From positions 1 through 64,000 of the forward strand of contig CAMNXF010000015.1 of the NCBI GenBank assembly GCA_946567425.1: 64,000 bases of DNA. Direction: 5' to 3'. Each line of letters opens with the position of its first letter. Position 1 is the first letter of the stretch. The notes under the pieces were generated by a model. That model ran no database searches. It saw only the letters and a program-made list of their open reading frames with translations, and had not been told where the DNA came from. This document shows, one piece after another, positions 1 through 13,611 of this stretch. The DNA is from an uncultured Clostridia bacterium. Lineage in GTDB: Bacteria; Bacillota; Clostridia; Oscillospirales; Ruminococcaceae. A program made the translations under genes and the position numbers.

Positions 1-2
1 CA

Positions 3-554
3 CAGAACGCCGCCAGAGCCGCCGAAAAGCCCCTACCCAAACAGGAATACCCCCGCAGCATAAAAGACCGTTTACAGCGCAATAAAGCCGCCATAAATGC
101 CCCGAAGAATGACGGAGTACAGCGCATGGTAGACCGGGAAGCCAAGCGAGCCGAGGGCAAGGGCATAGGATATGACCGCTGGGCGGCTGTCCACAACCTA
201 AAGCAAATGGCGGCGACCATGAGCATTTACGAGGAATCCGGCTTTTCTTCCCCGGAAGAACTGGAAGCCGCCCTTGCCGCCGCCAGTGCGGAGCTGAACA
301 GCGTCCATGCAGAACTGAAAGCGGCAGAAAGCACTTTGCGGGAGAAAAAGGACTTGCAGAAACAGCTATTGGCATACATCAAGACCAAGCCCGCCCGTGA
401 TGAACTGAAAGCGCAGAAAACAGAGAAAGCCCGGAGAGCCTACCGGGAACAGCACGAAAGCGATTTTATCATAGCCGAAGCCGCCACCCGGTATTTCAAG
501 GCGAATGGAACCGCCAAGCTGCTAGCGTCCAAAGCGTTACAAACAGAGATTTAG
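3..554 (+). CDS. Relaxase/mobilization protein, C-terminal part (5' truncated by window)
   Basis: The frame is open from base 3. It encodes a charged, coiled-coil-rich tail (repeated Ala/Glu/Lys helices, residues KKDLQKQLLAYIKTKPARDE and similar) typical of the C-terminus of MobA/MobL-type relaxases of Tn4451-like elements; the nicking domain is upstream of the window. It ends at a TAG at 552-554, but the same frame stays open for another 48 codons to TAA at 699-701 and those codons keep the same coiled-coil character, overlapping the start of the next gene. The TAG is therefore probably a nonsense mutation or a readthrough site in a longer protein. Confidence 0.7.
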   Translation, partial: QNAARAAEKPLPKQEYPRSIKDRLQRNKAAINAPKNDGVQRMVDREAKRAEGKGIGYDRWAAVHNLKQMAATMSIYEESGFSSPEELEAALAAASAELNSVHAELKAAESTLREKKDLQKQLLAYIKTKPARDELKAQKTEKARRAYREQHESDFIIAEAATRYFKANGTAKLLASKALQTEI

Positions 555-690
555 CAGCTAACGAGGGAGAAAAACGCCCTTTACAACGAGTACCGGGAGA
601 AGAAAGAGAACGTCCGGGAATTGCAGACCGTGAAAAGCAATCTTGACAAAATATTGCGCCGTGAGCCGGAACGGGGAAAGGGGCGGGAAA

Positions 691-1077
691 ATGAACGGTA
701 AACGCCCCTACATGGACTACCCACAGTACAGAGCCGCCCGCCGCCTTGTGCATGAGTGCTGTAACTATGATAACGGTAACTGTATTGTACTGGATAACAG
801 CGAGCCTTGCGTATGTGTGCAGAGTATCAGCTATTCGCTTCTCTGCCGCTGGTTCATTGCCGCCGTGCTGCCGCTGGACGGGAAACTGGAAGCCGCCCTT
901 TTGCACCGGGCAGACAGGAAACGCTGTACCGAGTGCGGCGGGTATTTTCTCCCCAAATCCAACCGGGGGAAATACTGCCCGGATTGCGCCGGACGCATGA
1001 AAAGAATCAAGGCTACACAGCGCAAGCGGAAACAGAGGGATAAATGTCACGCTTTAGGATATTCCAAACCCCCGTAA
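691..1077 (+). CDS. Cysteine-rich VLP domain protein
   Basis: A 128-residue protein with about ten cysteines. It carries the Val-Leu-Pro motif (AAVLPLDGKLEAALL) that names the Cys_rich_VLP family, then a CxxC...CPxC zinc-ribbon-like block (CTECGGYFLPKSNRGKYCPDC) and a basic C-terminus. Members are found almost only in Tn4451-type mobilizable elements beside the relaxase; their biochemical role is unknown. The ATG at 691 is preferred over upstream in-frame starts because a GGGGAAAGGGGCGGG Shine-Dalgarno region precedes it; it overlaps the extended relaxase frame by 11 bases. Confidence 0.8.
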   Translation: MNGKRPYMDYPQYRAARRLVHECCNYDNGNCIVLDNSEPCVCVQSISYSLLCRWFIAAVLPLDGKLEAALLHRADRKRCTECGGYFLPKSNRGKYCPDCAGRMKRIKATQRKRKQRDKCHALGYSKPP

Positions 1078-1186
1078 ATCAAGGCTTTTTTGACTGCCTT
1101 CAAAGGGTAGACGATATTTATATCCTTTACCCCCGAAAAAGCCGCTTTCATTGCGTAACAGAAGCCACAGACAGGAGGTGAGAACC

Positions 1187-1942
1187 ATAACCGAATACAT
1201 CACATCCGACACCATAATGCCCCGTTTTCTGCCCTATCCCTATTTTCTGCTGAAAATGGACTTGTCATATACTGCAAGGCTGCTCTATGCGGTGCTTCTT
1301 GACCGTTCCACCCTCTCACAGAAGAACGGCTGGCAGGACAGCGAGGGCAGGACGTATATTGTCTATCCCGTTTCGGAGATAACGGAAACGCTGGATAAAG
1401 GCAGCACCGCCATAAAAAGCGCACTGAACGAGCTGGACGCTGCCGGGCTTCTGGTGAGGGAACGCCGGGGCTTCTCCGCACCGAACCGCCTTTATGTGAA
1501 AATACCGCAAGTGCCAGTGGTACAGTTTTCCGACCATATGACCCCCATACAGCCGGAAAACCGACCCTCTGATAGCCGGAAAAGCGACCCTCATAAGGGC
1601 GGAAAACCGACCATTGCGTTGGACGGAAAACCGACCCCTAACCAACTTACTATAAACCAACTAAAAGAGAACCAACTAAAGGGAGCGAGTGAGAAGCCGC
1701 CCGCCCCGTTTGGCAGATACCAGAATGTTTTCCTCTCTGAAAGCGAATATGCGGAGCTGAAAGAGGAATACCCGGACAGGCTGGAACGGTTCATTGAGGA
1801 AATGAGCGAGTACATGGCTGCTATCGGGAAAGAGTACGCCAACCATGCCGCCGCTGTCCGTATGTGGGCGGGGCGTGACAGGAAAGGCACGGGGAAGAAA
1901 GGAATCCCCGATTATACCTACAAGGAGGGCGAGAGCCTTTGA
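1187..1942 (+). CDS. RepA-type replication initiator of the mobilizable element
   Basis: About 251 residues. The N-terminal part (MPRFLPYPYFLLKMDLSYTA region, then an HTH with SALNELDAAGLLVRE) matches the RepA_N replication initiator family of low-GC plasmids and mobilizable elements; the middle is Ser/Pro/Lys-rich and the C-terminus is helical. The start is unusual: the best ribosome binding site, AGGAGGTG at 1173-1180, is followed after six bases by an in-frame ATA (1187), giving the family-like N-terminus (M)TEYITSDTIMPRF. Other choices are TTG 1151, GTG 1178 (inside the binding site) or ATG 1217. Probably starts element replication together with the DnaC-like protein next to it. Confidence 0.75.
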   Translation: MTEYITSDTIMPRFLPYPYFLLKMDLSYTARLLYAVLLDRSTLSQKNGWQDSEGRTYIVYPVSEITETLDKGSTAIKSALNELDAAGLLVRERRGFSAPNRLYVKIPQVPVVQFSDHMTPIQPENRPSDSRKSDPHKGGKPTIALDGKPTPNQLTINQLKENQLKGASEKPPAPFGRYQNVFLSESEYAELKEEYPDRLERFIEEMSEYMAAIGKEYANHAAAVRMWAGRDRKGTGKKGIPDYTYKEGESL

Positions 1943-2005
1943 CAGCATAGACACAACGCCCCGTAAACAGGGCGTAAAAGACCATGAACAAGGAGGAACG
2001 ATTTT

Positions 2006-2860
2006 ATGAGTGATTACGATAACGCCATTTTCCGGCTTGCCACGGCACAGGAAGCAGAGCCGGAGGACTACACGGGCGAGGACGGGCTTTTATATTGCGG
2101 GAGCTGCCGCCAGCCCAAAGAAGCCTACTTCCCGGAGGGCAAGACCTTTTTCGGACGTGACCGCCACCCCAAAGAGTGTGACTGCCAGCGCAAACGCCGG
2201 GAAATGTTGGAAGCCGCAGACCGGGAACAGAAGCACCGGGAGGAAGTGGAATGGCTGAAAAGAAAGGGCTTTACCGACCCCGCCATGAAAAAATGGACTT
2301 TTGAGAACGACAACGGGAAATGCCCCCAAATGGGAACGGCGCACTCCTATGTGGAGCGTTGGGAGCAGATGAAAGACGGGAACCACGGACTGATTTTGTG
2401 GGGGAAAGTCGGCACGGGCAAAAGCTATTTTGCCGGGTGTATCGCCAATGCCCTTATGGAGCGTGAAGTTTCCGTGTGCATGACAAATTTTGCCCTTATC
2501 CTCAATGACCTTGCCGCCAGCTACAAAGACCGCAACGAATATATAGCCCGCCTTTGCAGCTTCCCCCTGCTTATCCTTGACGATTTCGGCATGGAGAGGG
2601 GAACGGAATACGGGCTTGAACAGGTCTACAACGTGATTGACAGCCGATACCGCAACGGAAAGCCGCTGATTGTCACAACAAATTTGACACTGGAAGAATT
2701 GTGGAATCCAGAGGACACCGCCCACAAGCGGATTTATGACCGGGTAACAGAAATGTGTACCCCTGTCCGCTTTACCGGGGAGAATTTCAGAAAAGCCGCC
2801 GCAAGGAAGAAAATGGAACGCTTGAAAAAGCTGCTGAACGGAAAGGAGATTTGCCTATGA
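2006..2860 (+). CDS. DnaC/IstB-like AAA+ ATPase (helicase loader type)
   Basis: A 284-residue protein. The N-terminus has a Cys cluster (CGSC at ~33-36 and CDC near 59), followed by a DnaC/DnaI-type AAA+ domain with Walker A GKVGTGKS near residue 132 and Walker B LLILDDFG near 190. It probably loads the host replicative helicase at the element origin set by the RepA-type protein upstream. The RBS AAGGAGG precedes ATG 2006. The stop overlaps the start of tnpW (ATGA), so the genes are translationally coupled. Confidence 0.85.
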   Translation: MSDYDNAIFRLATAQEAEPEDYTGEDGLLYCGSCRQPKEAYFPEGKTFFGRDRHPKECDCQRKRREMLEAADREQKHREEVEWLKRKGFTDPAMKKWTFENDNGKCPQMGTAHSYVERWEQMKDGNHGLILWGKVGTGKSYFAGCIANALMEREVSVCMTNFALILNDLAASYKDRNEYIARLCSFPLLILDDFGMERGTEYGLEQVYNVIDSRYRNGKPLIVTTNLTLEELWNPEDTAHKRIYDRVTEMCTPVRFTGENFRKAAARKKMERLKKLLNGKEICL

Positions 2861-3048
2861 CCGACACCAAGAAGAAAGATCGTCCTGCCCGCCGCCCGGA
2901 TTGCGTCACCGAGGTACGCAGAGGGAACACCGTCCTTGTGGTTTCCGGCTACTTCAAACAGGGAACTACCGCCACCGCCGCCGACAAAATGCTGAAAGTG
3001 CTCGAAGCCGAAAGCGCAGTCGGGGAACGAACCGCCCACGCTATATAG
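2857..3048 (+). CDS. tnpW: TnpW-like transposon protein
   Basis: A 63-residue protein whose sequence (core TVLVVSGYFKQGTTATAADK, start MTDTKKKD) matches the TnpW family carried by Tn4451/Tn4453-type elements; function unknown, in some elements proposed to affect excision. The ATG at 2857 overlaps the previous stop codon and has AAAGGAG ten bases upstream, so this start is preferred over an upstream in-frame start inside the DnaC-like gene. It lies directly before the recombinase gene. Confidence 0.8.
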   Translation: MTDTKKKDRPARRPDCVTEVRRGNTVLVVSGYFKQGTTATAADKMLKVLEAESAVGERTAHAI

Positions 3049-3109
3049 TGCGATAAACCTTAATAAAAAACCGTGATATTTTTCGACATAAAGTAGCAAA
3101 AAGGACTGT

Positions 3110-4803
<1,694 letters not shown>

Positions 4804-4881
4804 AGCCCGACCTGTCCGGCAGTCAGCCGGATAGGAACGGCAAAATTTTTTACACTTCTTTTACTTCTTTATATCACATGA

Positions 4882-5226
4882 GCAAAGACACAGGGATTCG
4901 CAGATAAGAGCATGCAGAAGGCTGCCGAAAGAATAGCGATACTCGAGAAGAAGAAAAATGAACAAAAGCTCATAGAAGGTTTTATTGTTAATGGAATAAT
5001 ATCAGTTGCGGAGCTCGAAAAAACTATTGTCCCCGATGTGCTGAGAATATCCCTGCTCAGGTGGATATCTGATGCAAACCGTAATAAAACCATGTCCGGA
5101 ACAACAGATTTTGGTCGGAAGTTTCATCTGCGTAAAGATGTGGGGAAAGCTGTTTTGCACTGTACTGACGGTGATTTGCACATGCCGTCTTATATAATTG
5201 AATTTGAGGAAAAAACGGATGAATGA
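4882..5226 (+). pseudogene. jetA: jetA fragment (Wadjet TIGR02677-like), N-terminal part removed by element insertion
   Basis: The open frame begins right after a TGA at 4879-4881, at the end of the mobilizable element, and encodes about 114 residues. The sequence ends LHCTDGDLHMPSYIIEFEE, which resembles the C-terminus of TIGR02677-type JetA, the kleisin-like subunit of Wadjet; the full protein is normally about 400-500 residues. No ribosome binding site fits the first ATG (4912). It overlaps the jetB start by 8 bases, as expected of the intact operon. The missing part should lie left of the element, outside the window. The product alone could not act as a kleisin. Confidence 0.75.
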
Positions 5227-6421
5227 ATTTATTTTATTGCTGAAAAATTTCTGGATCGTCCGTAGCGAAAACGCAAGCGATTATGTTAAAATCAAACATG
5301 CCGCTGACAGCAATATGAAGAATTTTATAAATGGCTCTCTCGGCTGGAAATTGATTATTAACAGCAAGCTTATTAAGCTTGAAAAAATCCCTGCCGAGGC
5401 GGAGCCGTATATGGGTATACAGGAATTTCAGAGTCCAATGGACTACTGCCTGCTGTGTGCGTTATTGATATATTTGAGCGATATGGACGAGGGCAGTCAG
5501 TTTTTGCTTTCAGAGCTGACGGAGATTATAGAGAAAATATCGGCGAACACAATTGAAATTGATCTGAACAAATATTCAGACAGAAAATCATTAGTGCGTA
5601 TGCTGAGGTTTGCACAGAATATCGGTTTGCTGAAAATTGCTGAAGGCTCCCTGCACAATATTGAAAATGATCTTGAAAAAGAAATACTTTATGAAAACAC
5701 CGGATTGTCGGTGTATTTTTCGATTCATCACGACAGAGATATTTCGGAATATACCTCATATCATGATTTTGAAAATGCGGAGATGATTTATACGGACAGC
5801 GAAAAAGGCTATATGAGAACTAACAGAGTATACCGCCGCCTGATTGCGCAGCCTGCTATGTATTGGGACTCGAACCTTGACGCAGATAGTATTTATCTTA
5901 AAAATCAGAGAAATTCAATATCCAATTATTTAAGTAAATATTTAGGCGGTCGACTTGATATACACAATAAATCGGCATTTTATATGGTTGATGACGAGAA
6001 CCTTTTCGGCGATGTTCATCCCTCGGATGGAATGCTTTCGGGAATTGTTTTGCTTTTATGCGGAGAAATCCGAGATAATTATATGGAAATATGCACCAAA
6101 AACGGAGATGATTTAGTCGTTAAGCAAGATGCCTTTCACAGTTTTATTTGTGCCTGCCGGAAAAAATACCAGGACGGAATAAGCAAGGAATACTGCGATT
6201 ACACTGATGAAAAGCTAATTATAAAAATTACGGATTATATGATAAAATACAAAATGATCGAAAGTAAAAACGAAGATTATATTTTAAGAGACGGGGTTTT
6301 TAAAACAGCTGGCAAATATCCGGAGAATTTTAGATCCGACGAAAATAATAAAAATAAGGAGCACGGAAATGGAACGTTGGATAATGAGCAGACTGGGTTT
6401 TGTGAATTTTTGGGTGTATGA
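5219..6421 (+). CDS. jetB: Wadjet JetB (MukE-like, TIGR02678 type)
   Basis: A 400-residue protein in the position and size range of TIGR02678/JetB, the tandem winged-helix (KITE) subunit that bridges kleisin JetA and the SMC JetC. I assign it mainly by context: jetA end upstream, SMC-like jetC and TOPRIM jetD downstream, all overlapping or close. The start is ATG 5219, supported by GAGGA at 5206-5210; a longer TTG start at 5198 overlaps that site. The frame overlaps jetC by 53 bases, giving tight translational coupling. Codon use is AT-rich compared with the flanking core genes, which suggests transfer. Confidence 0.75.
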   Translation: MNEFILLLKNFWIVRSENASDYVKIKHAADSNMKNFINGSLGWKLIINSKLIKLEKIPAEAEPYMGIQEFQSPMDYCLLCALLIYLSDMDEGSQFLLSELTEIIEKISANTIEIDLNKYSDRKSLVRMLRFAQNIGLLKIAEGSLHNIENDLEKEILYENTGLSVYFSIHHDRDISEYTSYHDFENAEMIYTDSEKGYMRTNRVYRRLIAQPAMYWDSNLDADSIYLKNQRNSISNYLSKYLGGRLDIHNKSAFYMVDDENLFGDVHPSDGMLSGIVLLLCGEIRDNYMEICTKNGDDLVVKQDAFHSFICACRKKYQDGISKEYCDYTDEKLIIKITDYMIKYKMIESKNEDYILRDGVFKTAGKYPENFRSDENNKNKEHGNGTLDNEQTGFCEFLGV

Positions 6422-9400
6422 TACGGAGGAGTTTCCGTTCAGGAACGGCAAGCTGCTCCTGCGGGGACTGAACGGCTCCGGAAAATCCATTACCACGCAA
6501 AGCTGTATCCCATATATTTTGGACGGAGACAGAACGCCTTCGCGCCTTGACCCTTTTGGCACAAAGGACAGAAAGATGGAATACTATCTTTTAGGCGATC
6601 CTGATAGCGGAAAAGATGAAAGTACCGGATATATATACCTTGAATTTAAAAAGCCGATCAGCAGGCAATACCGCACGGTGGGGATAGGTCTCCACGCAAG
6701 AAAAGGCATGAAAATGAACATTTGGGGCTTTTGTATTCTTGACGGAAGGCGCATTGGTCTTGACATAATGCTTTATCGGGAGGCTGGAGCCGAAAAGATC
6801 CCGCTTGACGCAAAAGCCTTGCGGGAAGAGTTGGGAGACAAAAATCCTTTTACCGAAAAGCCAAGCGAATATAAAACGATCGTGGCAAAGCATATTTTTG
6901 ATATTGACGACGATTGTATCCAAGACTTTGAACAGCTAATAAATATCCTGATAAAGACACGTTCGTCAAAGTTGGCGTCAAAGGAAAATCTGAAGCCGGA
7001 GCAGCTTTATGCGATTCTCAATGAATCGTTGCAGCCGCTGTCTGAGGAAGAACTTCATCCTATGGTCGACGCTATGAATAAAATAGAGGAAATTCACCAA
7101 AAGGCTGACGAAATGCAAAGCGTTCTTAAAGAGGTGAAATCGGTCTCCGCAGAATATGACAGATACAACAAATATATGCTGTGGAAAAAGGCGGCGGAAT
7201 ATTCAAAAAAGAATAAGGATACATTGGCAGTAAAGGCCGAAACTGACGATTTAAAAGCTGAAATAAATAAAAATTCAACGAAAAAATCGGAGGCAGAAAG
7301 CAGCCTGAATGCATTGGAAACGAAGCTAAAGGATCTGGAAAGAGAACAGAGCTCTCTTCATTACGATGATATCCATAAACGCATAAATGAACAAAAGGAT
7401 GCGGAAAACAGCCTTTCCGATGCACTTAAAAGGAGGGATAATAAACAAGCGGTAATTGATGAAAAGGAAGAAAAGGTCAACAAAAAATATAGGGAACGGC
7501 AGGAAAACAATCAAAAAATATCCGACCTTGAAGATAATATCAAAAAACAGACGGCCGATTTGGAGGAATACGACGAATTTGTGCCGCCTTTTCACAATAA
7601 TTATCTCAGAGGAATAAAATCCGATGACAATTTCGGTGCAGATGCCGGAAAGTATATCAACGAAATTAATAATTACCGTGATAAGCTAAGAGGTATTTTT
7701 TCCATAATTGAAAGATTGGACAGCGAAAATGAGGCCTTGGAAAGTGCGGAAAAGAGTTTTGATGAGGCCAAACACGCAGAGGAGAGTGCGCAGAACAGCT
7801 TGAAAAAGGCACAGAAATTGCTGAACGATGAAAAGGACAGCTTGATAGAAAATTTCTATCGTTCGGCAAAAGAAAACCGTGAATTTATGATCAATGAAAA
7901 CCTTCTTGCCGAAATTGAGGCTTTTATTTCCGATTACGAGGGCGAGGGTACTTCGGGCGACTTGCTGAAGCTGCTTTCAAAAAATAAGGAAGATATCACA
8001 ATCGAACTGCAAAGAAATATTGCTAAACGTGAGAAGGAACACGAAACGGCAAAGGCTGATTACGACGCTGCATTGGCGGAACTTGAGGAATTGAAAAACA
8101 CAGCAGAACCTGTTCCCGAACGGAGCGGGCATCGTGCGCATGCAAGAAATGTCCTTTCGGAAAAAGGGATAGAGTACCGTTCCTTTTACGAGTGCATTGA
8201 TTTTAAGGACGGAGTTGACGACAGCACGAAAGCCATTCTTGAAGCTGAGCTTTCGGATATGGAAATGCTGGACGCTCTGGTCGTTTCCGAAGGACAAGCC
8301 GATGACGCAATGAAAGAATTGGGATATCTTTCGGATTGCATGATCATTTTGGAAAACAAATATGCGGATTATGAAAGTCCCTTTTTTACAGTCTCGGAGG
8401 GATGCAATCTGAAAAAGGAAACAGCGGCGATCATCGGTGCTCTTTCTGCCAAAAACGACTTCGGCGTGAAGGTAAACGCAGACGGTTATTATAAAAACGG
8501 TATTCTGGAGGGACATTCCGACGACGAAACTAATGCGAGATTTATAGGTGCGGAAAGCAGGAAAAAATATCGTGAAAAGCAAATTATGGAGCTTAACGAA
8601 AAATGTGCGAAGCTGCTGGCGCTGTATGAAACCGCAAAGGCGAAGCTTGACGCTGCGCAGGGGCGTCTTAAAAAGCTGGACGAAGAATATCAGCCGCTCA
8701 CTGATTTCGGAGATATTAACGAAGCATTGAAAATCGTAACCGAGGAGAAGGCAGTTCTTGCGGGAAAAATGAAGGAAACATCAGCGGCAGAGACTGCGTA
8801 TACTCAGGTAAAACAACGCACCGAGAATTTAAAATCTCAGCTTGAAATTGAAAGCAGGGATATTCCTTACAGAAAAAATGCTCAAGCTTATGCCGACGCA
8901 ATTTCCGAACTCGGATCGTACTCTAACATCTTGCAAAATATCTGTTCGCTGCTCTTGGATAAAAAGCAGTGCATTCTTGTTGATAATAATATAGGGGAAA
9001 GTATTGAAGATTTGGAAAGCGATATTGATTCCGCACTGCTCGATATGAAGCACATAAAGGATTCCATACACGGTTATGAGGAAACGATAAGATTATGCAG
9101 AGAATTTTTGGAGCGTCCCGAAAACAGAGACATTGCAAAGCGTGCCGATGAAATTTACGAGGGAATTAAAGCTGCCGAAGATGCAAAAGAAAAGGCAAAA
9201 ATAACGATCGAAGTATGCAAGAATAAAATCGAATCCGATTCTGAAAAGCTTGAAAGGTCAAAAATCAAGTTACTGCAATTAATTGAGGAAGAGACTCTTC
9301 TTGCAAAGTATCTTACGGAGGAATACAACCTTGGACTGGTTATTGATGAAAAGGAGCTGACGCTGATGCAGTGTGTGGAAACCGCCGAGAAATCCGTTTA

Positions 9401-10421
9401 TAAGGAAGATGTGAAAAAAAGCGAATCCGATATGCAGAGAGACTTGTTTATTTCTTTTAACAAGCATTTCAGCAGCGCTGCGGCGGAATATAATCCAACA
9501 ATCAATGAGCTTTTTGACGGCGGCGAAGCCGACTATGTAAGAAAACGCAGTATAATCGAGCTTACGTGGCAGGGTAAAAAGCTCTCCCCCACCGCCTTTG
9601 AAACGGAAATTTGTAATGAAATCGAAAACTGCCGGCTTTATTTGAAAGATGGCGAAGAAAATATTTTCACCGAAATCTTAATGGATACCGTAAGCAAAAA
9701 GCTTTACTACCGCATAGGCAGTAGCAGAAAATGGGTCGATTCAATGGCATGTTTAATGGAAAACATCAACACCTCTATGAAGCTGAAATTTTCGCTGAAG
9801 TGGAGCCCAAAAAAATATGCGGGGGAGGAACAGCTTGAATTTAAGGAACTATATTCCATTCTCGGCAAAAGCAAGAAGCTTATACGTCCTGAGGATTATG
9901 AAAAATTATCCGCTTGTTTCAAAGAAAAAATAGAGCTTGAAAAACGCCTGTTTGAGGAACGGGGCGAGGACATAAATTATTCCGATCTTGTTAAAAACGT
10001 TCTTGACTACAGGAAATGGTTTGAGTTTCGTTTGTTGTGCAAGCCTGCAAATGCGGATAAATTTTCAGAGCTTACGGTAAGCAGATTTAATACTTTCAGC
10101 GGCGACGAGAGAGCTTTGTCGCTGTATATACCGCTGTTTGCGGCAGTGGCGGCACAGTATGAGAAGGCGGGAGAGCATGCGCCGAAGATTCTCGCTCTGG
10201 ACGAAACGTTCGCCGGAGTCGACGACAGCAATATCAGCGAAATGTTTGGGCTTCTGGAAAAACTGGGATTTGGTTATATAGTCAATTCGCAGGCTTTGTG
10301 GGGGTGTTATGAGACAGTTCCATCCCTTGAAATAGCGGAGCTTTTCCATGAAAGATACAGTGATTTTATTTCTGTTGTTCTATACGAATGGGACGGCAAA
10401 ATCAAGATGCTTGCAGAATAG
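6369..10421 (+). CDS. jetC: Wadjet JetC, MukB/SMC-like ATPase (TIGR02680 type)
   Basis: A 1350-residue SMC-type ATPase. The N-terminal head has Walker A GLNGSGKS (~residue 34-41); two long coiled-coil stretches (~250-520 and ~700-1050) flank a globular hinge; the C-terminal head has the signature NTFSGDERALSLYIP and Walker B KILALDETFAGVDD. The start MSRLGFVNFWVYD-type and the length match TIGR02680. JetC forms the loop-extruding motor that lets Wadjet recognise small circular DNA. ATG 6369 follows AAGGAG. The protein appears complete with no frameshift, so decay has not begun here despite loss of jetA. Confidence 0.9.
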   Translation: MERWIMSRLGFVNFWVYDTEEFPFRNGKLLLRGLNGSGKSITTQSCIPYILDGDRTPSRLDPFGTKDRKMEYYLLGDPDSGKDESTGYIYLEFKKPISRQYRTVGIGLHARKGMKMNIWGFCILDGRRIGLDIMLYREAGAEKIPLDAKALREELGDKNPFTEKPSEYKTIVAKHIFDIDDDCIQDFEQLINILIKTRSSKLASKENLKPEQLYAILNESLQPLSEEELHPMVDAMNKIEEIHQKADEMQSVLKEVKSVSAEYDRYNKYMLWKKAAEYSKKNKDTLAVKAETDDLKAEINKNSTKKSEAESSLNALETKLKDLEREQSSLHYDDIHKRINEQKDAENSLSDALKRRDNKQAVIDEKEEKVNKKYRERQENNQKISDLEDNIKKQTADLEEYDEFVPPFHNNYLRGIKSDDNFGADAGKYINEINNYRDKLRGIFSIIERLDSENEALESAEKSFDEAKHAEESAQNSLKKAQKLLNDEKDSLIENFYRSAKENREFMINENLLAEIEAFISDYEGEGTSGDLLKLLSKNKEDITIELQRNIAKREKEHETAKADYDAALAELEELKNTAEPVPERSGHRAHARNVLSEKGIEYRSFYECIDFKDGVDDSTKAILEAELSDMEMLDALVVSEGQADDAMKELGYLSDCMIILENKYADYESPFFTVSEGCNLKKETAAIIGALSAKNDFGVKVNADGYYKNGILEGHSDDETNARFIGAESRKKYREKQIMELNEKCAKLLALYETAKAKLDAAQGRLKKLDEEYQPLTDFGDINEALKIVTEEKAVLAGKMKETSAAETAYTQVKQRTENLKSQLEIESRDIPYRKNAQAYADAISELGSYSNILQNICSLLLDKKQCILVDNNIGESIEDLESDIDSALLDMKHIKDSIHGYEETIRLCREFLERPENRDIAKRADEIYEGIKAAEDAKEKAKITIEVCKNKIESDSEKLERSKIKLLQLIEEETLLAKYLTEEYNLGLVIDEKELTLMQCVETAEKSVYKEDVKKSESDMQRDLFISFNKHFSSAAAEYNPTINELFDGGEADYVRKRSIIELTWQGKKLSPTAFETEICNEIENCRLYLKDGEENIFTEILMDTVSKKLYYRIGSSRKWVDSMACLMENINTSMKLKFSLKWSPKKYAGEEQLEFKELYSILGKSKKLIRPEDYEKLSACFKEKIELEKRLFEERGEDINYSDLVKNVLDYRKWFEFRLLCKPANADKFSELTVSRFNTFSGDERALSLYIPLFAAVAAQYEKAGEHAPKILALDETFAGVDDSNISEMFGLLEKLGFGYIVNSQALWGCYETVPSLEIAELFHERYSDFISVVLYEWDGKIKMLAE

Positions 10422-10438
10422 TTTTAAGGGGAAGAAAA

Positions 10439-11734
10439 ATGTCGGAAACCCAGAAATGCGTAGAACATTTTAAATCCAAATCGGGATATGCGAGAATTAT
10501 GGCGTCCATACACAAGCAATACTGCAAGTACGGCGAGGCCAAGGGCAACATTGTGATAAGCGAAGCGTCTGCCGAAAAATGTGACGCAGCAAATGAAATT
10601 GTTAATCCGAAGAATCCGTTTGTTCCGCCTTTAGTCAAATTCAGCGTTCGGGACTTTGAAGAGGGACTTAGGAAAACAAGCTTTGGCAATGTTGATCTAA
10701 GATACATAGCAGAAGCTTATTGCGGGAAAAAAATTTTCACTAAAAAGGAAGTATCCGCAGCAACGAAAGAAGTCAAAAATGCGGTTTTTAACAGGGTTGA
10801 AGAGAGAAATGCAGAATGCTTCTGTGAAAAATGGCTAAAAGAAATGGTCTTCCGAAAATCCTTTGGATACAAAAGCATTATTCGAGAAATTACCGCTTCG
10901 CCCAACGAGGCGGAGGAAATGCTGGAAAATGTTTGCAAGGCGATAAATTCAAGGCAAAATACGGAGCCTGTTCAGCTTGCGGTTTTGAGTGCGGAAATTA
11001 CGGGAGATTCTCATTATTTTGATAACACCCGTATTGCGGGAAAGCTTCTGCTGAAAGGACTTGCGTGTACTGCGGGAATGCCGAAAAGCAAGCACGCTGA
11101 GGAGGAAAAGGCTATTTACGCCGAATTTGGGATTGAACCCGACAACATTTCAAGCATGACCGCTGCTGTTGGGATAAGGCTGTATAAGAGCGATAAGTGT
11201 GAGCATCCCGCATTCAAAATTTTTGCGGATACCGGTGAAATATGTTTAATTGCCATGGCAAATCTTATGGATATAAGAGGCGCAGATACCGATGGCAAAA
11301 CGGTTATAGCGGTAGAAAATCCCATGGTATTTACCGCTTTGAGTGGTGCAGCGTTCAAGCACGGATATGGACTGATATGCACTTCGGGGCAGCTTAAAGC
11401 CTCGGGAATAAAACTTCTGCAAATGTTGGCAACTGCGGGCTGCAAAATTCTTTATGCGGGCGATTTCGATCCCGAGGGTCTGCAAATTGCCGATAAGATT
11501 CTTCGCAGATTTTCAGGATATGACGTTCATGCTTGGCACATGTCGGCAGATGATTATAACGCCATTGAAAAGGGAGATGAGATTACGGAAGCACGTCTTA
11601 ATAAGTTGAGCAGCGTACAATCGGCTGAACTTGCTTCTGCGGTAAATTCAATTCGCTCTGAAAGGCGTGCGGCATATCAGGAGCTTTTGGTTTCACAGAT
11701 GATTTACGATATATCCCATGAGTCTCTTGATTAA
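10439..11734 (+). CDS. jetD: Wadjet JetD, TOPRIM nuclease (TIGR02679/DUF2399 type)
   Basis: A 431-residue protein. The C-terminal half is a DUF2399/TOPRIM domain: the conserved Glu lies in AVENPMVF (~residue 301) and the Asp pair in YAGDFDPEGLQIAD (~342). The N-terminal part is a DNA-binding arm region. JetD cleaves circular plasmid DNA after the JetABC motor reels it in. The ATG at 10439 with AAGGGGAAG just upstream is preferred over an in-frame ATG at 10388 inside jetC; the gap to the jetC stop is 17 bases. All catalytic residues that I can recognise are kept. Confidence 0.88.
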   Translation: MSETQKCVEHFKSKSGYARIMASIHKQYCKYGEAKGNIVISEASAEKCDAANEIVNPKNPFVPPLVKFSVRDFEEGLRKTSFGNVDLRYIAEAYCGKKIFTKKEVSAATKEVKNAVFNRVEERNAECFCEKWLKEMVFRKSFGYKSIIREITASPNEAEEMLENVCKAINSRQNTEPVQLAVLSAEITGDSHYFDNTRIAGKLLLKGLACTAGMPKSKHAEEEKAIYAEFGIEPDNISSMTAAVGIRLYKSDKCEHPAFKIFADTGEICLIAMANLMDIRGADTDGKTVIAVENPMVFTALSGAAFKHGYGLICTSGQLKASGIKLLQMLATAGCKILYAGDFDPEGLQIADKILRRFSGYDVHAWHMSADDYNAIEKGDEITEARLNKLSSVQSAELASAVNSIRSERRAAYQELLVSQMIYDISHESLD

Positions 11735-12202: not shown

Positions 12203-12715
12203 TTACAGAAAAGACACGTCTGATGAGTTACCCCGAGGTACGGCTAGTTGCAGCATCATGTGAACCTTGCGAACCATGCTGTCGGCAAGCTGTGTACCAT
12301 GTTTTTTATCCGGCTTGACTCGACCATTTTCCTTGATAGTGTTATAGAATTTTTGAATTTCCTGAGTTGTCAACGATGATGACGGATGTTTTCCCGGATA
12401 AGGATTAACTTGATTTTTAATTATCATTGTATAGCTGCTTAATGTATTCGGTCGAACGGAACATATTATATATTCTGCTATCCGCTTATCGAGCCATTCA
12501 GATAAGAGCATATTACAATCTTCACACAGATCAACATCACGATACATTTCAATTTTATCATGTAGTTTTTGAGTAAACTCCGCTTGCGTTTTTGCTAATA
12601 CATAGCGGTATATAGGCTATCCATTGTTCTTGTGACCAACTACAATTCTGCCTTCCCAACGTCCGTCCTCGCGCTTGCGAACCATTCCGTCGCCCGACGG
12701 TCTGCGTTTTGCCAT
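12203..12715 (-). pseudogene. Tyrosine recombinase (phage-type integrase), broken
   Basis: Starting at ATG 12715 (AGGAGGTG upstream) the frame reads as the N-terminus of a phage/transposon integrase: MAKRRPSGDGMVRKREDGRW, then an arm-binding domain, then the SAM-like core-binding domain (LSEWLDKRIAEY...NTLSSYTMIIKNQVNPY...LTTQEIQKFYNTIKENG). There is an in-frame TAG at 12617-12619, and after MVRKVHMMLQ the sequence diverges and stops at 12203, so the whole catalytic domain is missing. It is the last gene of a minus-strand cluster with the HTH and excisionase-like genes, so these are remnants of one integrated element. Confidence 0.8.
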
Positions 12716-12959
12716 AAACAGCACCTCCTTTGTAACCACACATCATACCACAAAAATTTGCAGAAGTCCAGCGGTTTTTCATTATTTGTTCAGTTTTTTC
12801 TCTCGCAGGAGACCGCCTTTTGGCAAGTAACTTTTTTCCTTCAAAGTGCCTTAAACGGTCGACTCTGCCGTCCGATGTGATCCGTGAGGGGGCGGCTTGC
12901 CGACCCCTCGCTTTGTCCTGCTTTCAAATAATATACGCCATATTTACCCCTCACGCCCG

Positions 12960-13400
12960 TCAAACCGCTTGCTTTTCGGGTTTTAAGCCGAGTTTGTCTA
13001 TCCGTTTTTTCTGCTTTTCTTCCGAGATTTGTCGGTCAATATTTTGAAATTGGCGGTTATAAGAATACTGTTTCGCTTGCTCGATAGGAAGTATCGTGTA
13101 GAGCAAATTTCCGTTGAGTTTCTTGCCCTGTGAAGTATGAATATCGGTTGGCTCAGTAGCAATAAGCTCCTTGTCAACAAGTAATTGAACGTACTTGCTA
13201 ACAGTGTTTCGCGACATATTAAGCGCTTTTCCGATGCTCTTGTAGCTCGGGTAACATTGGAATGTTTTTCGATTTTCGCGATATAGTAAGTACGAGTAGA
13301 CCGCTATCTCACCGCAGGAAAGATTGAGACAGAATATCTCATTAGGCAGCGGAAAGTAGTCTTTGATTGGGTCGCGATTTGGGTATCTGCTGTTCCTCAT
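12960..13400 (-). CDS. Helix-turn-helix protein of an integrated element
   Basis: A 146-residue protein with a winged-HTH region (YSYLLYRENRKTFQCYPSYKSIGKALNMSRNTVSKYVQLLVDKELI, given here only as positions ~30-75) like RepA/plasmid-replication-type or ICE-borne HTH proteins, followed by a basic tail. ATG 13400 is preferred to a GTG at 13406 because GAGG (13407-13410) gives normal spacing. The gene starts within 10 bases of the excisionase-like stop, so the two are one transcript. It appears intact although the downstream integrase is broken. Role unknown; replication or regulation of the element is likely. Confidence 0.7.
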   Translation of the reverse strand: MRNSRYPNRDPIKDYFPLPNEIFCLNLSCGEIAVYSYLLYRENRKTFQCYPSYKSIGKALNMSRNTVSKYVQLLVDKELIATEPTDIHTSQGKKLNGNLLYTILPIEQAKQYSYNRQFQNIDRQISEEKQKKRIDKLGLKPEKQAV

Positions 13401-13407
13401 ATGCACC

Positions 13408-13611
13408 TCACTTTCCCGTTTTCGCGTCTATCCAAAGCTGTAATTTTTCTTTTGGCACGACTAATCTTGAGCCGATACGGATTGCAGAAAAGTCTTTTTC
13501 ATGAATCAATTCATAGCTGCTTGAAATTGAAACACCAAGCACTTTCGCAAGCGTTTCAGCATTCAAGAACAGCGGCAGTTCCTCAAAGTTTGTGTACATT
13601 GCTTCTTTCAA
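13408..13611 (-). CDS. Excisionase-like small HTH protein
   Basis: A 67-residue MerR/Xis-type DNA-binding protein: FLNAETLAKVLGVSISSSYE forms the HTH and SAIRIGSRLVVPKEKLQLWI the wing, the usual excisionase-family pattern. The start is TTG 13611, chosen because GGAGG lies eight bases upstream; ATG 13599 is the alternative. It heads the minus-strand element cluster and would have served with the now broken integrase. Confidence 0.8.
   Translation of the reverse strand: MKEAMYTNFEELPLFLNAETLAKVLGVSISSSYELIHEKDFSAIRIGSRLVVPKEKLQLWIDAKTGK

Follow-up and report, generated by a model that had tools for sequence, protein, structure and literature searches.

Organization of the locus

We analysed a stretch of 64,000 nucleotides (the window; positions 1 to 64,000, forward strand) of contig CAMNXF010000015.1 from an uncultured Clostridia bacterium of the family Ruminococcaceae (GenBank assembly GCA_946567425.1), in which a mobilizable element ends inside jetA, which encodes the kleisin of a type II Wadjet anti-plasmid system. 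Window 1-4884 is the right part of the element, and the Wadjet genes run from 4885 on. The genome is designated G000 and the contig bearing the window C15, base 1 of which is window position 1. The G000 draft comprises 2.91 Mb in 40 contigs (91.71% complete, 2.43% contamination). The two flanks of jetA lie on separate contigs, the C-terminal part on C15 and the N-terminal part on C33, at the opposite end of the element. The features of the split operon are as follows.

G000:C33:10278-11437: jetA N-terminal part, 386 codons, directly before the other inverted repeat of the element
4864..4884, + strand: right terminal inverted repeat, pairing with C33:11438 onward; its extent of 21 bp is adopted from the repeat length given in the available text of PMC12904643
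4885..4886, + strand: crossover dinucleotide AA at the right junction, with its left copy at C33:11436-11437
4885..5226, + strand: jetA C-terminal part, kleisin C-terminal domain, 113 codons and a stop, assigned by PADLOC, Pfam and an AlphaFold2 (AF2) model
5219..6421, + strand: jetB (KITE subunit), full length; PADLOC JetB2 8-387/388, TIGR02678 above cut-off
6369..10421, + strand: jetC (SMC ATPase), full length; PADLOC JetC2 2-1352/1355, TIGR02680 above cut-off, JetC of PDB 9qe0 at E 1.4e-153
10439..11734, + strand: jetD (Toprim-type nuclease), full length; PADLOC JetD2 2-426/430

The two halves of jetA

The two parts of jetA were complementary in the same family models. The PADLOC JetA2 model PDLC00540 (496 positions) was covered at 3-385 by the N-terminal part and at 385-494 by the part in the window, and Pfam DUF2397 (483 positions) was split likewise into 1-371 and 374-482. 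Since the halves complement each other in one family model and inverted repeats stand at both junctions, a chance arrangement is very unlikely. The N-terminal part alone exceeded the TIGR02677 cut-off and was the sole TIGR02677 match found in G000. The C-terminal part was modelled with AF2 from 13 aligned sequences (mean predicted local distance difference test score, pLDDT, 85.7; predicted template modelling score 0.71). Compared with the PDB at E <=0.001, this model gave two matches only, JetA of 9qe1 and 9qe0, which represent the solved type II Wadjet complex of Neobacillus vireti, with template modelling scores by query length of 0.78 and 0.82, respectively. JetA N- and C-terminal parts both match 9qe0, and the break falls in the linker preceding the C-terminal domain.

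A first-pass annotation, made from the letters of the window, had proposed that a TIGR02677-like JetA C-terminus opens directly where the element ends. PADLOC, DUF2397 and the fold match to 9qe0/9qe1 agree with it. Its frame start of 4882 has to be moved by one codon, the last base of the element being at about 4884. The N-terminal sequence predicted to lie beyond the element is present on C33, and the predicted structure of the C-terminal part resembles JetA as had been expected. This short part alone gave no NCBIfam match at E 0.001, TIGR02677 included; for it the label is thus carried by Pfam, PADLOC and the fold match.

Both halves are open up to the crossover core without a stop. When the flanks were joined at AA, a jetA of 499 codons with a single stop at its end was obtained. 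The joined protein was 54.6% identical to the JetA of locus L007 over 498 columns, with one gap located away from the junction. L007, the single relative returned by a contig-collection search with the JetA N-terminal part, carries an uninterrupted jetABCD whose proteins are 49-58% identical to those of G000. No relatives of the JetA C-terminal part were found in viral contigs.

Element ends and crossover core

The sequence from C33:11438 onward and that from window 4884 backward on the other strand form an imperfect inverted repeat, which is common to related elements. To the right, the boundary of the element lies 81 bp past the stop of its recombinase gene (4803 to 4884). The right-end scan covered 69 sources (the window and the collected loci) with at most two substitutions and gave 49 distinct rows, of which six were left ends read in reverse and 43 were kept; L032, L139, and L148 gave no row. 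AA was found before the repeat in all 10 distinct left ends, that of G000 included, and at 42 of the 43 distinct right ends, that of the window included, the exception being L124. In three MAFF2 genes that carry no insertion (L112-L114), the sequence continues across the site with no extra bases. With both halves of the gene, both ends of the element, and the AA core identified, the earlier proposal that the element cuts the Wadjet kleisin gene is confirmed.

GC was also considered as the core. The flanks are then likewise in frame (501 codons), with two extra linker codons compared with L004, L005, and L007. It was ruled out further by right ends that read GT and keep AA, as well as by the read-through in L112-L114.

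Downstream Wadjet genes

None of jetB, jetC, and jetD contains a stop or a frameshift. The start of jetB overlaps the stop of jetA, and that of jetC overlaps jetB. Of the intact, coupled genes described at first pass, the full length of all three and the overlap of the first two stand, whereas the most likely start of jetD is 10439, 17 bases past jetC, in a frame that is open from 10388. JetD reached 184.6 bits with TIGR02679, under the cut-off of 196. All four Jet proteins matched the PADLOC type II models best, and the type II gene order of kleisin jetA, KITE jetB, SMC jetC, and nuclease jetD is present; an uninterrupted jetA, which is a type II feature, is not found here.

Gene content and relatives of the element

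The right part of the element carries the following features, all on the + strand.

3..554: relaxase C-terminal part, 60% identical to residues 327-552 of the 556-amino-acid relaxase of the element in genome G222
643..1077: Cys_rich_VLP protein (Pfam PF14194, E 9.1e-24)
1151..1942: RepA_N replication-initiator-like protein (Pfam PF06970, E 6e-14)
2006..2860: DnaC/IstB-like ATPase (PF01695; NF005992 above cut-off)
2755..3048: TnpW protein (Pfam PF14202, E 2.1e-10)
3151..4803: large serine recombinase with Resolvase, Recombinase, Zn_ribbon_recom, and DUF4368 domains
4805..4851: conserved hairpin with AAAATTTTTT after it, probably a terminator, within the element end (fold -24.6 kcal/mol, z -3.22)

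The recombinase frame is open. The relaxase part gave no Pfam or NCBIfam match, and its match to the relaxase of the G222 element was the single one in G000; neither its N-terminal part nor the rest of the element middle was found in the assembly. The left end on C33 contains MarR, FMN-binding (FMN_bind), flavodoxin, and sigma-like genes. The visible sequence of the element amounts to 7.6 kb in total, and no resistance gene was found among the frames read in it. These data support the initial description of a mobilizable element with its own replication genes, for which the relaxase part, the RepA_N and DnaC/IstB-like genes, and the large serine recombinase are present. Its designation as a Tn4451-type element holds as regards the serine recombinase and TnpW, but the crossover dinucleotide AA and the kinship with IME_Rho_tet elements depart from it.

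Recombinases at least 76% identical to that of the window numbered nine besides its own in the class-level genome sample described below, with more in the family-level sample and six in viral contigs. The recombinases of the elements of G222, G343, and G347 are 81-83% identical to it, this comparison covering genome-borne elements rather than the reference proteins of PMC12904643. These elements measure 10,830, 11,007, and 11,366 bp between their ends and share 71-77% DNA identity with the part in the window. We take them for IME_Rho_tet elements, read against the available text of PMC12904643, and the frames of G222 and G347 include one of the tetracycline ribosomal-protection type, assigned by eye. 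A larger conjugative element, as suggested by the RepA_N and sigma-like genes, was rejected because the three relatives measure 10.8-11.4 kb. On a contig of the viral collection, a shortened relative of about 3.3 kb with both ends present was observed (L102:2767-6068); by eye it holds a ribosomal-protection-like gene and the C-terminal part only of the recombinase.

The hairpin was conserved among 11 distinct sequences, that of the window included. Paired cells made up 95.8% of the alignment, a value reached in 11 of 500 shuffles. Double-sided changes occurred in three pairs, as many as in 24 of 500 shuffles or more, and further pair types were no more numerous than in the shuffles (335/500). 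The simple terminator scan did not list the hairpin. No promoter-like site was found on the + strand between 4600 and 5660. The hairpin with its T-run is predicted to act as a terminator and probably silences jetBCD as well.

Neighbouring sequences

Just after jetD, at window 12206-13611, lie an integrase N-terminal part (Phage_int_SAM_3), an HTH_17 frame, and a small frame of replication type assigned by eye, which are probably relics of another integrated element. Upstream of the jetA N-terminal part, C33 carries two long repeat-rich frames that look surface-protein-like by eye (G000:C33:2082-9054, L002) and, at the start of the contig, a MobL relaxase fragment. A MobL search of G000 gave three matches, none inside the element that splits jetA. 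Recombinase matches in G000 numbered 17 including that of the window; the others were at most 51% identical and several contained stops (contigs C7, C20, C39, C28, and more). G000 is apparently home to many serine-recombinase genes or remnants.

Choice of the target site

Among IME_Rho_tet elements with a matched site, 116 of 256 sit in MAFF2 genes, as stated in the available text of PMC12904643. In our right-end collection, a simple rule flagged 28 of the 43 right ends as MAFF2-like, among which L026 is doubtful and terminator-like. The MAFF2 model matched all six genomes chosen for carrying related elements, and the matched genes include whole ones and others that are split near position 43. 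The element of G000 is not integrated in MAFF2; its target is jetA. No MAFF2 match was found in the G000 draft, and the control genomes of that search were likewise without a match. A 12-nucleotide half-site profile built from 17 other flanks reached the score of the jetA site at only 2 of 156,324 positions in the window and C33, the site included. Given that the search for a MAFF2 target gave none and that a short half-site in jetA resembles MAFF2, the landing in jetA was most likely opportunistic, at a secondary site.

Wadjet and the element in other genomes

Two genome samples were searched for both the recombinase and JetA, the latter as a TIGR02677 match. Paired searches were taken as covering the same genomes, and the p values of co-occurrence ignore the kinship of the genomes. 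The family sample comprised 396 genomes of the same family, with a recombinase threshold of E 1e-200. The recombinase was present in 23 and a TIGR02677 match in 11 of them, and four genomes (G000, G137, G592, and G605) had both, versus 0.64 expected. When G000 was left out, the numbers were 22 and 10 of 395, with three having both versus 0.56 expected (p 0.014). The class sample comprised 391 genomes, and the threshold was set at E 1e-150, which takes in relatives of only 45-49% identity. There, 25 genomes had the recombinase and 18 had JetA, and the overlap was G000 only; without G000, 24 of 390 had the recombinase, 17 had JetA (six below cut-off), and none had both versus 1.05 expected (p 0.61). 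Avoidance between Wadjet and the element was thus tested and not observed, and the family sample shows an excess.

In G137, G592, and G605 the JetA frames are 520-522 amino acids long without a stop, and JetB, JetC, and JetD are matched over most of their length. These Wadjet proteins are 30-43% identical to those of G000, and the element is known there by its recombinase alone. Because the three genomes hold an intact-looking jetABCD together with this recombinase type, residence of the element does not seem to require that Wadjet be off.

The two samples together contained 28 distinct genomes with a TIGR02677 match, which are G000, 20 others above the cut-off, and seven below it. Only in G000 was this element seen at a break in JetA. 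Five of the seven below the cut-off were inspected; G317, G374, G488, and G715 hold JetA fragments or internal deletions with no such recombinase adjoining by eye, and the JetA of G251 is at a contig end. The other two, G331 and G430, are very weak matches. The JetA N-terminal part of G715 (G715:C39:50426-53998, L155) is 63% identical to that of G000, and the Wadjet operon there has shrunk by two internal deletions, one from jetA to jetC and the other from jetC to jetD.

Interpretation and alternative explanations

We consider it very probable that a mobilizable element akin to IME_Rho_tet used a secondary site in jetA and thereby disabled a type II Wadjet system, perhaps reversibly. The element would have integrated by its own large serine recombinase at the AA core in the jetA linker, and the insertion would separate the first 386 codons of the kleisin from the last 113. 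Deprived of its C-terminal domain, the kleisin would be unable to close the SMC ring, and the hairpin with the T-run at the element end would cut jetBCD off from the jetA promoter. Wadjet would then be off while the element is resident. The loss may be reversible, given that the jetA frame restored by precise excision would be open. All four subunits were needed against plasmid transformation in Bacillus subtilis (PMC10586767, available text), and jetABCD had a five-log effect on conjugative plasmid uptake in Clostridium cellulovorans (PMC12287153, available text).

Several points weigh against this reading. The flanks are on different contigs and the element middle is unassembled, so that the continuity between C33 and C15 is inferred. 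The loss of Wadjet activity is deduced from sequence, and the statements on promoter and terminator rest on prediction. A JetA match was present in none of six genomes of the same genus, and no empty site in a near relative is thus visible. As for target choice, a MAFF2 gene may have been missed in a draft that is 91.71% complete. A 20-nucleotide profile was less selective than the 12-nucleotide one, with 53 of 156,292 positions scoring as high as the jetA site; it follows that only the inner part of the jetA site resembles MAFF2 in sequence. Moreover, a longer MAFF2-like pattern, to which the jetA site does not conform, is matched at three positions of the genome (one position for the reversed control pattern), and the half-site alone therefore does not decide target choice.

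Another explanation, raised in part by the first-pass annotation, is a reversible switch driven by conflict, in which jetA is favoured as a target since Wadjet would destroy the circular form of the element, and excision restores the defence. The exact, in-frame junction of the flanks and the open recombinase frame leave room for such a switch, and the presence of both ends and of full-length jetBCD is in line with it. The size of the related elements (about 11 kb) is under the limit of about 100 kb above which circles escape Wadjet (PMC10586767, available text). We nevertheless regard it as unlikely. An intact-looking jetABCD coexists with the recombinase type elsewhere in the genome in G137, G592, and G605; the four genomes of the family sample with both amount to an excess rather than avoidance; the element stands at the break in one alone of the 28 genomes with a TIGR02677 match; and related elements are mostly found in MAFF2-like sites. 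Since Wadjet genes and such elements co-occur in other genomes, the insertion has the appearance of an opportunistic landing and not of a dedicated switch, and a single insertion in a single genome cannot show selection. A seamless off-switch, in which the small excised circle would be destroyed by the restored Wadjet so that excision would be penalized and residence enforced, appears quite unlikely.

It is similarly improbable that Wadjet was already dead and that the insertion is one step of its decay. Such decay does occur in relatives, as seen from G715, which lost parts of jetA to jetD, and from the JetA fragments of G374, G488, and G317, whereas in G000 the frames of jetB, jetC, and jetD run their full length uninterrupted by stops or frameshifts, and both jetA halves stay open as far as the core. 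An artefact of assembly or binning, by which C33 and C15 would come from different strains and the split would not be real in one cell, is very improbable. The fragmentation, incompleteness, and contamination of the draft and the missing element middle would allow it, but the ends found at the two junctions belong to the element and share the AA core, the halves complement each other in one family model, and no other JetA was found in G000. Equally improbable is a split but working kleisin whose two parts assemble as separate proteins with JetB and JetC, since a kleisin must span the two SMC heads and the C-terminal part is preceded by a conserved hairpin with a T-run and lacks a promoter-like site on the + strand in 4600-5660, even though the cut lies in a linker before a domain that folds alone in prediction (pLDDT 85.7) and an ATG at 4912 could start a C-terminal part of 104 amino acids.

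This case places a mobilizable element within the kleisin gene of a chromosomally encoded defence against plasmids and defines its two junctions and its core. It offers a concrete locus for testing whether the defence is off while the element is resident and on after excision. As it also indicates, a visible resistance gene need not accompany an IME_Rho_tet-like backbone, and such a backbone can use a site other than MAFF2. The genomes with both indicate that the presence of intact-looking Wadjet type II genes does not keep such elements out.

Comparison with known systems

Wadjet type II has been described before, as have the IME_Rho_tet family and its target habit. Among the matches listed, the open-licence literature contained no IME_Rho_tet-like element in jetA and no case of Wadjet interrupted by mobile elements, and the main text of PMC12904643, as far as available, makes no mention of Wadjet, TIGR02677, DUF2397, SMC, or defence/defense.

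Large serine recombinase and TnpW are shared with Tn4451-type mobilizable transposons, although no Tn4451 sequence was included in the comparison. The crossover dinucleotide of Tn4451 is GA, whereas that of the present element is AA, and its gene content follows IME_Rho_tet. According to the available text of PMC12904643, IME_Rho_tet elements have inverted repeats at both ends, a signature relaxase and serine recombinase, a 3' boundary 81-90 bp after the recombinase stop, and a ribosomal-protection tetracycline-resistance gene near the 5' end. The present element agrees in the repeats and in its boundary 81 bp past the stop. It also carries the relaxase C-terminal part and the Cys_rich_VLP, RepA_N, DnaC-like, and TnpW genes, in the order read by eye in the frames of G222 and G347. 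It differs in having MarR, FMN-binding, and flavodoxin genes where the tetracycline-resistance gene would be expected (within the visible 7.6 kb), and in its location in jetA, its relatives being often, though not universally, in MAFF2. The interrupted operon itself resembles Wadjet type II, whose PADLOC models match best for all four proteins, with the JetA parts and JetC also matching 9qe0; it differs in that jetA is split by the element, while L007 shows the uninterrupted arrangement.

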